A stretch of DNA of 64,000 bases from Rhodopseudomonas palustris (GTDB taxonomy: Bacteria; Pseudomonadota; Alphaproteobacteria; Rhizobiales; Xanthobacteraceae). The DNA lies in assembly GCF_013415845.1 (NCBI RefSeq), contig NZ_CP058907.1, positions 3,162,001 through 3,226,000 on the forward strand, in the 5' to 3' direction. Position 1 is the first letter of the stretch; each line of letters opens with the position of its first letter. The notes beneath the pieces are model-generated. The model was given only the letters and a program-made list of their open reading frames with translations. It ran no database searches and was not told the origin of the DNA. Position numbers and translations under genes: made by a program. Below, piece after piece: positions 57,387 through 64,000 of the stretch.

Positions 57387-57477
57387 CGCTAATAAGCCCT
57401 CTGCCTGTGAGTGCGACCGCGCAGCCGAAGCCCGCGGTTCGCAATCAGGAACACATCTCAGATTTTGACGACGGAAC

Positions 57478-57502
57478 GATGCGGCCGGATTCCGGCCGCA
57501 TC
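57478..57502 (-). terminator. Hairpin (attenuator candidate) between rpsB and tsf
   Basis: GATGCGGCCGGA and TCCGGCCGCATC form a perfect 12-bp dyad around a single T, ending 8 bp beyond the rpsB stop. A T-tract is not adjacent, so partial termination or mRNA protection is more likely than full termination. An rpsB-tsf attenuator is known in E. coli. Confidence 0.6.
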
Positions 57503-57510
57503 TCCCCGTA

Positions 57511-58506
57511 TTACTCCGCCTCGGCGGTCAGCGACTTGGCCTGCGCCACCCAGGCATCGGCCCGGCTCGGCAGACCGAGCTCTTCGCCGATCTGATGCGC
57601 GGTGGCCTGGTCGAGCTCGGCGAGCTGCCAGAAGTGGAAGATGCCGAGGTCGTTGAACTTCTTCTCGATCGCGCCGGACACGCCCGGCAGCTTCTTGAGG
57701 TCGTCCGGAGTGCCGCGCGGGCCCGGCAGACCCTGGAAGGTGGTCGCCTGCGCCGCCGGCAGATCCTCACGCAGCGGCTGCGTCGCAGCACCGATGTCGA
57801 TGCCGACGTCGCCCTGCGCACGCGAGATGCCGTCGATCACCGCACGGGCGACCAGATCGCAGTACAGCGCGATCGCGCGGCCGGCGTCGTCGTTGCCCGG
57901 CACCAGATAGGTGATGCCCTTCGGATCGCAATTGGTATCGACGATCGCGGCGACCGGGATGCCGAGACGCTGGGCTTCCTGGATTGCGATGTCTTCCTTG
58001 TTGGTATCGATCACGAAGATCAGATCCGGCAGGCCGCCCATGTCCTTGATGCCGCCGAGCGAGCGATTGAGCTTGTCGCGCTCGCGCTGCAGCTCCAGAC
58101 GCTCCTTCTTGGTGTAGGCATTGGCGTCGGCCGAGCTCAGCACGTCTTCGAGGTGACGCAGACGGCGGATCGAACCCGAGATCGTCTTCCAGTTGGTCAG
58201 CGTGCCGCCGAGCCAGCGCGAGTTGACGAAGTACTGCGCCGAGCGCTTGGCTGCATCGGCAACGGCATCCTGAGCCTGGCGCTTGGTGCCGACGAACAGC
58301 ACGCGGCCACCCTTGGCGACGGTGTCGCTGATCGCCTGCAGCGCACGATGCAGCAACGGCACGGTCTGGGTCAGGTCGACGATGTGGATGTTGTTGCGGA
58401 CGCCGAAAATGTAGTCCGCCATCTTCGGATTCCAGCGATGCGACTGGTGACCGAAATGCACGCCAGCTTCGAGCAGCTGACGCATAGAGAATTCAGGAAG
58501 CGACAT
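57511..58506 (-). CDS. rpsB: 30S ribosomal protein S2 with C-terminal extension
   Basis: A 331-residue S2, about 90 residues longer than the E. coli protein. Seen: [91 protein letters not shown] and a closing [18 protein letters not shown]. Residues from about 245 add a segment with [20 protein letters not shown] and [13 protein letters not shown], resembling a helix-hairpin-helix-like extension seen in other alphaproteobacterial proteins. The ATG at 58506 follows the family. A sigma-70-type promoter lies upstream. Confidence 0.97.
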
Positions 58507-58632
58507 TGTATCTTCTCCGGTTGGTTCCTCCGGAAACGTGTGGGCAACCGTGCCAGACGAGGGACGAATCCGTTCGCGGCCCGGTGCCACCGGACGGCCT
58601 TGTGAGCCATGTTTCCGTGTGAGATGGCGCGC

Positions 58633-58660
58633 CTTATAGCGGGATTCCCCGATAACGCAA
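58633..58660 (-). promoter_or_regulatory. Sigma-70-type promoter for rpsB
   Basis: On the minus strand TTGCGT (58655-58660) and TATAAG (58633-58638) are separated by 16 bases. The -10 is about 127 bp upstream of the rpsB start, leaving a leader long enough for S2 feedback control. This is the best promoter-like match near the head of the rpsB-lpxB block. Confidence 0.6.
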
Positions 58661-58740
58661 GGCGGAGCGGCCGAGATCGCTCCTGAAGGCGGCGGACCGC
58701 GTATGCCGCGATCCGCCAATTTTACCTGCCCTCACCGTTC

Positions 58741-61230
58741 TCAGCACTCCTTTGCGCCGGGCGGACAGCGTTTGGCGGGTCCCTGCGGCCGCGGCGGCGG
58801 GGCGGCCCTTGGCGGCGCCGGCGGCCGCGGCGGAGCTACATGGGGCGGCGGAGGTGCCGCGCGAACCGGAGCCGGCGGCGGCGCCATCCGCGGCGCCGCA
58901 TGTTGAGGCGGTGGCGGCGGAGCAACCCGGGGAGCCACATGCATCGGCGGTGGGACCGGACGAGACACCGTCGGCGGCGCCGGGCGCTGGATCCGTGGAG
59001 CCGCAGGCGGCGGACGGCGGTCAACGGCTGCCGCAGGCGGCGGCCCCGCCGGTCTGGCGGGCGCCGTCACCGGCGGGGTCGGCCGCAACCTGGCGGTGGG
59101 AGCCTGCTGCTGAGGGCGAACAGCTTCGGGCCGAACGGCCGGGCCTCCGCCGGCCGGCGGCGTGCCTGCGAGCGGCTTCGGCGCCGATCCGGCCGATGGC
59201 GCGACGGTCCCGTTTCGGGCCGCAGCCGGGCCGCCCGGGCCGAGCGCTGGCCGACCAGGAGGTTGCGGCTGAGCAACAGACGGAATCCCAGGGCGAGCAG
59301 CGACACCCGGTGCAGGCGGCAATCCCTTGGTTCCAGGGACCGGCAGCCCCTGGACGGCGGGTGCAGCGCCGGCGGGCGCGGTTGGCGCCGGCCTGCCCTG
59401 CCCCGCTGGGGCCGCGACGGCTGGTCCGGTCGGTTGGCTCGGCGACGATCCAGGAGCCGGCGTCGGCGCGGAGACCGGAGCGGTCGTAGTCGGAGCCTGT
59501 GTCGGCGCGGCTGCGGGCTGCGCCAGCCGCGGGCCCTGCAGCTGAACGCCCGGACGTTGCGCAAACCCGCCGGGCGGCGTCGTGGCAATCGACGCGCTTT
59601 GCGGCACCGGTGCCTTACCCTGCTGGATCAGCGTGGCGCGATGCAGCGCGGCGGCCGGCAGCGCCGCGCCGAGTACTGCGCCTGACGCGACCGCCGCCGC
59701 GGTGACTGCCGGCGCAGGCGCGCCAGGGGTCGCAACCGCAGGCCCAGTCACCGGCGGGCTCACCACCGGCGCGGCCGGGTTGGCGGGAGCGGCCGACGGC
59801 TGGTTGATCACCTGATTGATCACGGTGGTGTTGTGGATGTTGGCGAAGATGATGTTGTTCGGCGGCGGCTGCACATAGACCGGCGGCCGGACATAGGCCG
59901 GAATCGGCACGAACAACGGCCGCGGCAGATAGAACAGGCCGATCGGCGGCGGCGGTGGCGGCAGCACCACAAAGTCCGGCGGCGGTGGCGGCAGGAAGAA
60001 CACCGGCGGCGGTGGCGGCGGCGCGAAGTCGAACACCGGATCGCTGAACATCAGCACCGGACGGTCGACATAGACGATCTCGTCGGGCGGCGGCGGCGGC
60101 ACGTCATAGTCGATCACCGTGAAGCTCGGTGGCGGCTCCAGTGCAGCGGCGAGGATCTCCAGCCGGCGCCGGGCGTCCGCCGCGTGCGGACCGCGCGGAT
60201 AGCGGCGCAGATATGACCAGTAGGCATCCGGCGTATCGACGCGATACGTCCGCCGCCAAGTAATCGCCTCGCGCCGTGCGGCGACGATCGCCCTCACCCG
60301 CTTGGCCAGAGGATCGTTCGGATAGACCGCAAGAAAGTCTTCGTAAGCCTGCAGCGTGTCGCGATCGAGCGCCGCCGCATACGCTTCGGCGGCACCCATG
60401 TCGCGGATCGGCTTGCTACGCAGCGCCTGATCCGGCGCCGGCAGCGGCGGTGCATCGGGCGCGCGATCGAAGAACATGAAGTTCGACTCCACGCTCTGCG
60501 TATCCCACGGCACCTGCGCGCCCTTGGTGGTTTCATTGACGCGCAGCCGCACCCGATCGAACAGCTGCGGCAGCGTGAGCCCGCCGGTGCGGACCATCTC
60601 GGCCAACGCCTGCGCATAGACGCCGTAGGCGCCGCGCTCCTCCGGCGCCACGGTGCCGGGCGCGGCGTTGAAGGCGATCAGCATCTTCGGGTTCGGCTCG
60701 ACCATGGCAAGACCCGAGGCGACCGATCCGCCGGGCACGAACGGCTGCTCGCGCGCCAGATCGAGCACCACGACACTGGTCTTCAGCGGCAGCGCCGCGA
60801 GCTGGCGTAGATAGTCGCTGATACGCAGGCCTTCGGTCGGAATCTCCGTGTCGCGCGACAGCCGCGAGTCGACAGGGATGAAGTAGTTCTCGCCGGCGTA
60901 CTGCACGCCGTAGCCGGCCAGATACACCGCCGCGACGGTGTCGGGACCAGAGTCCTCGGCCTTCTTCACAAAGTCGCGAAAGGCGCCGCGCAGCGTGTCG
61001 CCGTCGAGGTCGCGGGCACCGCTGACGTCGAAGCCTGCCGCCTGCAAGGTTTGCGCGATCAGGCCGCCATCATTGGCGGCGGTCGAGAGAGGCGCCTTGG
61101 CATAGGCACCATTGCCGATCACCAGCGCGATGCGCTTTTCCTGCTGCTGTGCAGCCGCAGGACCAACCGGCCCGGCGATCAGAACAACGAGGACGGTGGA
61201 GACGACCGAGAAAAGATGATTGAGACGCAT
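58741..61230 (-). CDS. Caspase-fold (peptidase C14 family) protein lacking catalytic residues, with long Pro/Ala-rich tail
   Basis: An 829-residue exported protein. Seen: a signal peptide (MRLNHLFSVVSTVLVVLIAG, ending near AAAQQQ at 26-30). Then a caspase-like p20 domain (about 32-260) starts KRIALVIGNGAYAKAPLSTA and includes GENYFIPVDSRL. Where active homologs have AGHG and DACR, this one has AGYG (Tyr107) and DLAR (Ala159), so the His-Cys dyad is gone. A helical linker (270-375) follows, then about 450 residues of Pro/Ala-rich low complexity with PPPPP runs, ending KRCPPGAKEC. The start at 61230 is preferred over 61248 for signal length. It is 234 bp upstream of rpsB on the same strand. Confidence 0.85.
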   Translation of the reverse strand: MRLNHLFSVVSTVLVVLIAGPVGPAAAQQQEKRIALVIGNGAYAKAPLSTAANDGGLIAQTLQAAGFDVSGARDLDGDTLRGAFRDFVKKAEDSGPDTVAAVYLAGYGVQYAGENYFIPVDSRLSRDTEIPTEGLRISDYLRQLAALPLKTSVVVLDLAREQPFVPGGSVASGLAMVEPNPKMLIAFNAAPGTVAPEERGAYGVYAQALAEMVRTGGLTLPQLFDRVRLRVNETTKGAQVPWDTQSVESNFMFFDRAPDAPPLPAPDQALRSKPIRDMGAAEAYAAALDRDTLQAYEDFLAVYPNDPLAKRVRAIVAARREAITWRRTYRVDTPDAYWSYLRRYPRGPHAADARRRLEILAAALEPPPSFTVIDYDVPPPPPDEIVYVDRPVLMFSDPVFDFAPPPPPPVFFLPPPPPDFVVLPPPPPPIGLFYLPRPLFVPIPAYVRPPVYVQPPPNNIIFANIHNTTVINQVINQPSAAPANPAAPVVSPPVTGPAVATPGAPAPAVTAAAVASGAVLGAALPAAALHRATLIQQGKAPVPQSASIATTPPGGFAQRPGVQLQGPRLAQPAAAPTQAPTTTAPVSAPTPAPGSSPSQPTGPAVAAPAGQGRPAPTAPAGAAPAVQGLPVPGTKGLPPAPGVAARPGIPSVAQPQPPGRPALGPGGPAAARNGTVAPSAGSAPKPLAGTPPAGGGPAVRPEAVRPQQQAPTARLRPTPPVTAPARPAGPPPAAAVDRRPPPAAPRIQRPAPPTVSRPVPPPMHVAPRVAPPPPPQHAAPRMAPPPAPVRAAPPPPHVAPPRPPAPPRAAPPPRPQGPAKRCPPGAKEC

Positions 61231-61391
61231 GGCCGGGACCCGTTGCAAGGGCGCAGCCGGAACCGGCGCAGCGCCGCGGATCGCATTTCAGCGCGTCCCA
61301 ATCTGAATGGCGATTGAACAAGCCGCGAGCGGTTCGCGGACAAATACCGCCCTCGCCGTCCGTATTCCGTGGCGCGAGAACAAGGCCGTGG

Positions 61392-64000
61392 TCACAGCGT
61401 TTCGACGTGCTCGACGCCCGTCACCGCCTTGATCGCACCGGCAATTTGCGGCGACACGTGGTAGCGCCCGGGAATATCGAACTCGACCTCGGTCTGCGGA
61501 TCAAGCCGCAGCACCAGCGCAATGTTGCCGCCCGCCACCTTGGTCTCGGGCGGCTGCAGCCGCTTGACGACCGAGTCGAGGAACTTGGTGTCGCGGAGGA
61601 AGATGCGCAGGCCCTTCTGAGTCTTCGCCGCCGCGGCGTCGAGCGGCTCGGCATGCAGCACGCGGGCGCGAACGTCCTCGCCCTGGAGTTCGGCGCCGAG
61701 CTGCATCAGCACCGCGGCGCCAGGCTCCAGCACCTCGCGATATTGCGCCAGACCTTCGGAGAACAGCACCGCCTCGAAATGCCCGGTCGGATCCGACAGG
61801 CCGATGATGCCCATCTTGTTGCCGGTCTTGGTGCGCCGCTCCATCCGCGACACCACTGTGGCGGCGACCTTGCCGGCGGTGGCGCCGGATTTCACCGCCT
61901 TGCAGAATTCCGCCCAGGACTGCACCCGCAGCCGCTTCAAGGCGGTGGCGTAGTCGTCGAGCGGATGGCCTGACAGGAAGAAGCCGATCGCATCGTATTC
62001 GCGGCGCAGGCGTTCCGCCGGCAGCCACGGCTCGAGCTGCGGCAGGATGATCGATGGCGCGTCCGCCAGACCGCCGAACATGTCGTTCTGGCCGCTGGTC
62101 GCGGCTTCATGATTGCGCTGGCAGGCCGCGACGATCGCATCGGCGCCGCCGAACACACGGGCGCGGTTGGAATCGAGGCAATCGAACGCACCGGCGGCAG
62201 CAAGACATTCGATGACGCGCTTGTTGATGGCGCGCGGATTGACCCGCGCGGAGAAGTCCGCGAGCGAGGTGAACGGCCGATCGCCCCGCGCCTCGACGAT
62301 CTGCTGCACCGCCTGCATGCCGACGCCCTTCAGGCCGGCGAGCGCGTAGAAAATCGTATTCGGGCCGACCTCGAAGGTCGCACCGGAGCGATTGACCGAC
62401 GGCGCCTCGACCTTGATGCCGAGCCGCTGCGCCTCGGCGCGGAATTCTGACAGCTTGTCGGTGTTGTGGATTTCCAGCGTCATCGACGCGGCGAGGAATT
62501 CCACCGGATAGTGCGCCTTCATATAGGCGGTGTGGTACGATACCAGCGCATAGGCGGCCGCGTGGCTCTTGTTGAAGCCGTAGTCGGCGAACTTCGCCAA
62601 AAGGTCGAAGATGGTATCGGCCGCGTCCTTGGCGACGCCGTTCTTCACCGCGCCTTCGACAAAAATCGCGCGCTGCTTGTCCATCTCGGCGCGGATCTTC
62701 TTACCCATCGCGCGGCGCAGCAGGTCGGCGTCGCCGAGCGAGTAGCCAGCCATCACCTGCGCGATCTGCATCACCTGTTCCTGGTAGATGATGACGCCGA
62801 ACGTCTCCTTCAGGATCGGCTCCAGCATCGGATGCAGATATTCGGGCTCCTCGTCGCCGTGTTTGCGGGCGCAGTAGGTCGGGATGTTCGCCATCGGGCC
62901 CGGCCGATACAGCGCCACCAGCGCGATGATGTCTTCGAACCGGTCGGGGCGCATGTCGATCAGCGCCCGCCGCATGCCCGCGCTTTCCACCTGGAACACG
63001 CCGACGACATCGCCGCGGGCCAGCATCTGATAACTCGGCGCGTCGTCGATCGGCAGCGTGTGCAGGTCGACATGGATATCGCGCTGCTTGAGCAGCTTCA
63101 CCGCGACGTCGAGCGTCGTCAGCGTCTTCAGGCCGAGGAAGTCGAACTTCACCAGACCCGCCGGTTCGACCCATTTCATGTTGAACTGGGTCACCGGCAT
63201 GTCGGATTTCGGATCGCGATACAGCGGCACCAGGTCGCTGAGCGGGCGATCGCCGATCACGATGCCGGCCGCGTGGGTCGAGGCGTGGCGGGTCAGGCCT
63301 TCGAGCTTCTGCGCGATATCGAACGCGCGCGCCACGATCGGGTCTTCGTCGCGCGCCGCCTGCAGCTTCGGCTCGCCTTCGATCGCCTGCTTCAGGGTGA
63401 TCGGCGCCGCCGGATTCTGCGGCACCAGCTTGGTCAGCTTGTCGACCTGGCCGTATGGCATCTGCAGCACGCGGCCGACGTCGCGCAGCACGCCGCGCGC
63501 CTGCAGCGTACCGAAGGTGATGATCTGCGCCACCTGATCGCGGCCATAGCGATGCTGCACATACTCGATTACTTCGCCGCGGCGATCCTGGCAGAAGTCG
63601 ATATCGAAGTCCGGCATCGACACGCGTTCCGGATTGAGGAAGCGCTCGAACAGCAGGCCGAACCGGATCGGATCGAGGTCGGTAATCGTCAGCGAATACG
63701 CCACCAGCGAGCCGGCGCCCGAACCACGGCCCGGACCGACCGGAATGCCATGGGCCTTGGCCCATTTGATGAAGTCCGACACGATCAGGAAGTAGCCCGC
63801 GTATTTCATGCGGGTGATGACGTCGAGCTCGAAGGCGAGCCGCTTGTTGTAGTCCTCCTCTGTCGTCCCCGGCGACAGGCCGTGAACGCTGAGCCGCTTG
63901 GCGAGGCCCTGCTCGGCCTGGCGGCGCAGCTCGGCCGCTTCGGCGGCGGCTGCTTCCGCCGCGTCGCTGACGCTGGCGCCGACGGTGAACAGCGGCAGGA
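61392..64000 (-). CDS. dnaE: DNA polymerase III alpha subunit (3' part, cut by window edge)
   Basis: About 869 residues of the replicative polymerase catalytic subunit; the N-terminal PHP domain lies beyond position 64000. Seen: FELDVITRMKYAGYFLIVSD, GPGRGSGAGSLVAYSL, the metal-binding PDFDIDFCQDRR, RHASTHAAGIVIGDRPLSD, FDFLGLKTLTTLD, ALYRPGPMANIPTY, FGVIIYQEQVMQIAQVMAG, FNKSHAAAYALVSYHTAYMK, then a helix-hairpin-helix region and a C-terminal OB-fold (TKTGNKMGIIGLSD). This is the DnaE1 type. The gene continues in frame to the window end without a stop. Confidence 0.97.
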   Translation of the reverse strand, partial: LPLFTVGASVSDAAEAAAAEAAELRRQAEQGLAKRLSVHGLSPGTTEEDYNKRLAFELDVITRMKYAGYFLIVSDFIKWAKAHGIPVGPGRGSGAGSLVAYSLTITDLDPIRFGLLFERFLNPERVSMPDFDIDFCQDRRGEVIEYVQHRYGRDQVAQIITFGTLQARGVLRDVGRVLQMPYGQVDKLTKLVPQNPAAPITLKQAIEGEPKLQAARDEDPIVARAFDIAQKLEGLTRHASTHAAGIVIGDRPLSDLVPLYRDPKSDMPVTQFNMKWVEPAGLVKFDFLGLKTLTTLDVAVKLLKQRDIHVDLHTLPIDDAPSYQMLARGDVVGVFQVESAGMRRALIDMRPDRFEDIIALVALYRPGPMANIPTYCARKHGDEEPEYLHPMLEPILKETFGVIIYQEQVMQIAQVMAGYSLGDADLLRRAMGKKIRAEMDKQRAIFVEGAVKNGVAKDAADTIFDLLAKFADYGFNKSHAAAYALVSYHTAYMKAHYPVEFLAASMTLEIHNTDKLSEFRAEAQRLGIKVEAPSVNRSGATFEVGPNTIFYALAGLKGVGMQAVQQIVEARGDRPFTSLADFSARVNPRAINKRVIECLAAAGAFDCLDSNRARVFGGADAIVAACQRNHEAATSGQNDMFGGLADAPSIILPQLEPWLPAERLRREYDAIGFFLSGHPLDDYATALKRLRVQSWAEFCKAVKSGATAGKVAATVVSRMERRTKTGNKMGIIGLSDPTGHFEAVLFSEGLAQYREVLEPGAAVLMQLGAELQGEDVRARVLHAEPLDAAAAKTQKGLRIFLRDTKFLDSVVKRLQPPETKVAGGNIALVLRLDPQTEVEFDIPGRYHVSPQIAGAIKAVTGVEHVETL

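Follow-up and report, generated by a model that had tools for sequence, protein, structure and literature searches.

A Cys-less caspase-fold protein of Rhodopseudomonas palustris, probably exported and perhaps retained for binding

The DNA analysed here, referred to as the window, is a stretch of 64,000 nucleotides from Rhodopseudomonas palustris (NCBI RefSeq assembly GCF_013415845.1, contig NZ_CP058907.1, positions 3,162,001 to 3,226,000), part of a 5.32 Mb genome assembled as a single contig. Between dnaE and rpsB, on the minus strand, an open reading frame running from an ATG at 61230 to a stop at 58741 encodes an 829-residue protein with a caspase domain in which both catalytic residues are replaced. 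Its closest named relatives, with 99% identity over residues 1-400, are R. palustris proteins, and the laboratory strain R. palustris TIE-1 carries the gene too (P0003). An alternative TTG start upstream, at 61248, would add six residues. The features of the locus are the following.

58741..61230, minus strand: whole gene of the Cys-less caspase-fold protein (pseudo-orthocaspase), 829 codons plus stop
61150..61230, minus strand: putative signal peptide, residues 1-27, cleavage AAA/QQQ (sequence, by eye)
60478..61137, minus strand: caspase (Peptidase_C14) domain, residues 32-251 (Pfam, structure model, MALT1 match)
61069..61071, minus strand: Asp54, kept acid of the S1 (basic-substrate) pocket (conservation counts; aligns with a MALT1 Asp)
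60910..60912, minus strand: Tyr107 (TAC), catalytic His position (homologue, L001 and MALT1 alignments)
60760..60762, minus strand: Asp157, second kept S1-pocket acid (conservation counts; MALT1 alignment)
60754..60756, minus strand: Ala159 (GCG), catalytic Cys position (homologue, L001 and MALT1 alignments)
60148..60429, minus strand: helical hairpins after the caspase domain, residues ~268-361 (structure model, alignment)
59797..60120, minus strand: conserved Pro/aromatic segment, residues ~371-478 (alignment, dN/dS)
58771..59790, minus strand: Pro/Ala-rich low-complexity tail, residues 481-820 (composition, dN/dS)
58744..58773, minus strand: C-terminal KRCPPGAKEC with Cys822 and Cys829 (sequence; homologue C-termini)
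57511..58506, minus strand: rpsB, next gene downstream, a neighbour only (open reading frame, synteny; ATG at 58506)

The caspase fold proposed in the first-pass annotation, whose quoted motifs all occur in the translation, is borne out. Residues 32-251 match the Pfam family Peptidase_C14 (PF00656) with an expectation value (E) of 2.7e-36 and 125.9 bits, against a cut-off of 21.4, the structure model has the three-dimensional fold of a caspase, and the fold match to the paracaspase MALT1 (3uo8, 3v4o), a eukaryotic protein that differs in its active His-Cys dyad and its immunoglobulin (Ig) domains, spans the entire domain. The profile for EACC1-associated caspases (NF047832) scores 18.6 bits, under its 140-bit cut-off. 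Beyond residue 251 no Pfam or NCBIfam family exceeds its cut-off; the hairpin region gives a BamD-like match (E 0.073) that lies far below that of the family.

Both catalytic residues are replaced, as had been claimed. Tyr107, within YLAGYG, and Ala159, within LDLAREQPF, occupy the AGHG and DACR sites of L001, a His-Cys paralogue in the same genome, and in a profile alignment they fall on the catalytic His and Cys of MALT1. No conserved His-Cys pair occurs elsewhere in the fold in an 84-row alignment. The protein lacks the His-Cys dyad of an active orthocaspase and has the features of a YA-type pseudo-orthocaspase, namely a p20-type domain with Tyr and Ala at the dyad positions and a prolonged C-terminus without an identifiable domain. 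Because the Cys nucleophile is missing from a complete caspase domain, cysteine-protease chemistry should be lost, and sequence and model together suggest that the protein is proteolytically dead. The N-terminus, MRLNHLFSVVSTVLVVLIAGPVGPAAA followed by QQQ, resembles a signal peptide, with the cleavage site placed by eye, and the protein is probably exported.

Catalytically dead orthocaspase-like proteins are a known class, as the first-pass annotation stated; its description of this one as unusual is not supported, since Rhizobiales commonly have proteins of this type, which are already in print. In the passages of Klemencic et al. 2019 (PMC6426788) that concern us, 858 of 9,994 bacterial orthocaspases are pseudo-orthocaspases; Rhizobiales have YA forms, with Tyr-Ala for His-Cys in the p20 domain, and both their YS and YA forms have a prolonged C-terminus without identifiable domain; His-Ala is also listed as common. 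In 2012 the dyad was already described as kept in only 75% of alphaproteobacterial sequences, in the relevant part of PMC3501461. A word search of the main text of PMC6426788 returns neither Rhodopseudomonas nor disulfide, and none of its 7 mentions of cysteine is about a tail. Four features come from the present analysis and were not found in the passages of these papers: the grouping of YA, HA, YS, YT, RA and similar forms as one family, a Cys pair at the C-terminus, a conserved Pro/aromatic segment, and alphaproteobacterial genomes with the apparently dead form alone. In the library searched, no paper mentions both a pseudo-orthocaspase and a C-terminal cysteine.

How widespread is the loss of the nucleophile? 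Relatives were collected by two protein searches, one with the pseudo-caspase as query (first set, best 120 of 3891 matches) and one with L102, a His-Ala member whose genome is coded under a different order of the class (L102 set, best 120 of 460, including Microvirga, Chelatococcus and Alsobacter), and from genomic loci, where 111 distinct frames were kept of 151 matching. As only the best 120 of each search were listed, both protein sets are biased towards near relatives of their queries. The survey of relatives suggested in the first-pass annotation gives Tyr107 in 120/120 of the first set, which rules out a recent isolated mutation, and Ala159 in 118/120, with Gly in the other two. The L102 set is more varied, with His 53, Tyr 53, Arg 8, Gln 3 and Phe, Val and Leu 1 each at the His site, and Ala 97, Gly 10, Ser 5, Thr 4, Pro 2, Asn 1 and a gap (P0168) at the Cys site. 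The 73 locus rows of the Cys-less branch have Tyr 63, Val 4, Glu 2 and Gln, Leu, His and Phe 1 each at the first position, and Ala 64, Ser 6, Thr 2 and Gly 1 at the second. Cys at the catalytic Cys site was found in no row of the family examined: 0/120 of the first set (best 120 of 3891), 0/120 of the L102 set (best 120 of 460; one gap) and 0/73 of the locus rows. Among 199 genomes sampled from the order, 23, spread over six family codes, have a match at E 1e-70 or better. At E 1e-66, 56 of the 149 genomes in a family-level sample contribute 61 matches; of these matches 55 are Cys-less, 5 are His-Cys and one is unreadable (L176, in G209, a frame broken by an internal stop).

The history of this loss was followed in three trees. 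The first was built from 79 of 112 rows, after 33 near-duplicates had been dropped by hand, and later ones from 85 and 97 hand-picked rows. With the two dyad columns removed, the 86 Cys-less rows of the 97-row tree form one clade with a Shimodaira-Hasegawa-like approximate likelihood ratio test (SH-aLRT) support of 100, adjoined by L001-type His-Cys proteins. The tree requires 1 change between Cys and non-Cys and 11 between His and non-His; all trees were made by a quick method with SH-aLRT support only and contain several long branches, and such counts give no direction. Since many members keep His without Cys (53/120 of the L102 set, best 120 of 460), loss of the Cys appears to precede change at the His site. 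We infer that the nucleophile was lost once and that the His site drifted afterwards, a reconstruction that hinges on the rows chosen. Outside the window, the same genome holds two further pseudo-orthocaspases, L003 and L004, with Phe-Ser and Tyr-Ser dyad positions. Relatives of these paralogues form a separate Cys-less clade in the 79-row tree, so at least two losses are reflected in the R. palustris genome.

The coding sequence remains under constraint. Ratios of nonsynonymous to synonymous substitution rates (dN/dS) were obtained from 7 of 15 loci, six relatives and L073, from a Bradyrhizobium metagenome-assembled genome. For the caspase domain (residues 30-255) dN/dS is 0.07-0.14 against the six relatives and 0.28 against L073; for residues 256-380 it is 0.05-0.11 and 0.14, for the Pro/aromatic segment (381-480) 0.08-0.15 and 0.30, and for the Pro/Ala tail (481-800) 0.17-0.33 and 0.29. 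Values well below 1, with open frames in the listed close homologues, rule out a pseudogene or sequencing artefact.

An inactive caspase domain could act on an active caspase homologue as its decoy or regulator, much as cFLIP-L, which has an inactive caspase domain, pairs with caspase-8; in R. palustris the partner, paired with or competed against, would be L001. This paralogue lies in the same genome, has a signal-peptide-like start, is the genome's second-best match to the query, aligns across the caspase domain and hairpins (query 1-327 of 347), and is of the type that adjoins the Cys-less clade. The Cys-less family is nevertheless unlike cFLIP-L, the example named in PMC6426788, in that it is also present where no other caspase homologue turned up. 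Of ten genomes examined, six (G299, G117, G082, G065, G132, G160) yielded no PF00656 protein besides the Cys-less one, a fraction that is no frequency, the ten having been chosen for few candidates, and conversely G301 and G333 carry L001-type proteins without a Cys-less protein. A passage of PMC6426788 argues likewise from small cyanobacteria with only a pseudo-variant. Because each type occurs without the other, the decoy role is not a general function, although it could apply locally in the R. palustris genome, and we regard it as improbable.

A role in photosynthesis, proposed for pseudo-orthocaspases in PMC6426788, is a second candidate. The R. palustris genome has two Photo_RC genes, and passages of that paper place alphaproteobacterial pseudo-forms in three orders with phototrophs and confine pseudo-variants within the class to photosynthetic organisms. 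That restriction does not hold for the Cys-less family. In the family-level sample, the one searched for reaction-centre genes, matches under the most permissive setting (E 1e-66, with His-Cys proteins left in) occur in 11/21 genomes with such genes and 45/128 without (p 0.15), but once dyads are checked a Cys-less member is present in 9/21 genomes with Photo_RC and 43/128 without (Fisher p 0.46), and stricter thresholds give 7/21 against 43/128 and 5/21 against 33/128 (p 1 each). Within the genus, G283, G301 and G333 carry reaction-centre genes and have no Cys-less member, whereas Cys-less members bear the names Nitrobacter, Afipia and Microvirga, genera not, to our knowledge, known as phototrophs. 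Given this split, and the genomes in which the Cys-less form is the sole PF00656 protein found, both photosynthetic and decoy roles are unlikely as general functions; the photosynthetic one we consider highly improbable.

What has been kept is the acidic pocket. Asp54 and Asp157 are present in 120/120 of each protein set (best 120 of 3891; best 120 of 460), in 72/72 locus rows with a letter and 73/73 respectively, and together in all 60 readable loci of the family-level sample, those with His-Cys among them. Both align with their MALT1 counterparts, Asp54 with an Asp, and we take them to be the pocket residues Asp95 and Asp211 of TbMC2 described in PMC6426788, which in part of its text reports the two as highly conserved in prokaryotic pseudo-orthocaspases, with logos for cyanobacteria. 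The other invariant polar residues of the domain in the 84-row alignment are Arg81, Gln110, Arg136, Asp139 and Arg228. Invariant polar residues could point to a new enzyme activity independent of Cys and His; however, no Ser, Thr or Cys residue of the caspase domain is invariant in these rows and the His site is widely variable, making this the least probable of the explanations considered.

The first-pass annotation described the C-terminal region as a Pro/Ala-rich tail of about 450 residues. This is right for residues 481-820 (29% Pro, 24% Ala) but not for the whole, since residues 371-480 (31% Pro, 4% Ala) form a Pro/aromatic segment (YDVPPPPPDEIVYVDRPVLMF ...) and the last ten residues hold Cys822 and Cys829, the sole cysteines of the protein. 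Nor is the tail mere disordered filler: a conserved segment and a terminal Cys pair recur in most members. The Pro/aromatic segment can be traced in most of 23 aligned rows, fading in the most distant, and was not seen by eye in four His-Cys relatives inspected. The first AlphaFold model gave no confident fold for the tail; this model was poor (long tail, narrow alignment; predicted local distance difference test score, pLDDT, 58.7) and was used solely for that point.

Two Cys in the last 20 residues occur in 97/107 homologues of at least 700 residues in the first set (best 120 of 3891), in 102/105 in the L102 set (best 120 of 460) and in 52 of the 62 locus frames that are complete. Most of the 10 homologues without it in the first set have, as judged by eye, a cut or shifted C-terminus; P0041 has a single Cys. 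Of 199 pair-bearing proteins, 148 lack any further Cys from the first strand onward, the spacing is 4-7 residues in 194, and 98 end exactly in Cys. A genome pattern search for similar Cys-pair ends matched 5 genes but missed the pseudo-caspase gene itself. Complete frames span 606 to 1062 residues in 61/62 cases, and the remaining one looks shifted. The C-terminus also appears shifted in L045/L016 (G117), L057 (G070) and L067, by assembly error or decay. Genus code g123 is mixed, with L093-L096 lacking the pair and L086 and L088 carrying it.

These properties raise the possibility that the protein is a structural or assembly factor of the cell envelope, its caspase domain a mere folded cap and its Pro-rich tail and Cys pair a periplasmic spacer or a contact to cell wall or outer membrane. 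A tail of a few hundred residues is found in the complete members seen, despite varying total length, and the Pro/aromatic segment and C-terminal end are conserved. Against this, the caspase domain and pocket acids are better conserved than the low-complexity tail, and the Pro/aromatic segment fades in distant members. We judge this explanation unlikely, though it deserves more weight than the decoy.

Genomic context offers no clear functional message. The neighbourhood of rpsB highlighted in the first-pass annotation is real, but only in close relatives: the full order dnaE, pseudo-caspase gene, rpsB, tsf is found in the window and in L039, L040, L063, L064, L066-L069, L071 and L073, while L037 has the gene with rpsB and tsf and no dnaE in the stretch fetched, and other close loci are interrupted by contig ends. 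None of dnaE, rpsB and tsf appears in the stretches fetched around more distant members, and shared neighbours are confined to small subgroups (for example L044/L046-L048 and L049-L053/L055). In G333, DNA similarity breaks off at window position 58662 and returns at 61392, the two parts being separated by about 50 bases, so that dnaE adjoins rpsB without the gene; in G283 rpsB and dnaE are separated by about 1 kb that shows no similarity; and in G301 (L136) the 12 kb fetched around rpsB include no dnaE, indicating a rearranged locus. A functional link to dnaE or rpsB is unsupported. No RNA element exceeded threshold in 57400-61500, and a scan for promoters and terminators gave 0 and 2 sites, not exceeding the numbers in shuffled sequence.

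We return to binding in place of proteolysis, a plausible idea from the first-pass annotation that we keep in sharper form: an exported, proteolytically dead caspase-fold protein retained for binding, to which we give about an even chance. The signal peptide would export the protein, whose complete caspase domain, without a Cys nucleophile, would carry out no cysteine-protease chemistry. The conserved acidic S1 pocket may still receive a basic side chain from a partner, either a peptide or a protein, and the conserved hairpins and Pro/aromatic segment may provide extra contact surfaces. The long Pro/Ala-rich tether ends, in most members, in a Cys pair that would probably form a disulfide loop in the periplasm and could anchor or dock the far end. 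Such a protein could work alone, and not solely as partner of an active caspase.

Several observations weigh against this proposal. The pocket acids could be retained for fold stability, and as they are also kept in 12/12 rows of the Phe-Ser/Tyr-Ser clade and in His-Cys relatives, their conservation alone is no proof of binding. Thr50 and Thr61 are nearly invariant in the 84-row alignment, leaving room for a non-protease activity. Of the 10/62 complete branch frames without the Cys pair, 3 look cut or shifted and 7, in two groups (L022-L024, L093-L096), do not; the His-Cys sisters L182 (G255) and L184 (G214), from genomes with reaction-centre genes, have a similar pair, so that the trait is not tied to the loss of catalysis and is common, not universal. 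Finally, G283, G301 and G333, 3/7 genomes of the genus, give no match at E 1e-66, implying that the function is not indispensable.

More tentatively, and with distinctly less confidence than in binding as such, the family may be an ancient one of Hyphomicrobiales in which a caspase fold became an exported receptor that binds basic peptides without cutting, the Cys lost once, the His drifting, the acidic pocket frozen and a Pro-rich, disulfide-capped tether fixed to the envelope, leaving it the only caspase homologue in several species. A related case with a phenotype is the pseudo-orthocaspase SyOC of Synechocystis, likewise a caspase homologue with a substituted dyad, although cyanobacterial, whose deletion makes cells tolerate oxidative stress better, as stated in part of PMC7889975. 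Pseudo-orthocaspases are numerous and few have any tested role. The results speak against a photosynthetic role for the Cys-less branch, and the family lends itself to a clean test, with genomes in which no other caspase homologue was found, same-genus genomes without the gene, a conserved tail end and constant pocket acids.
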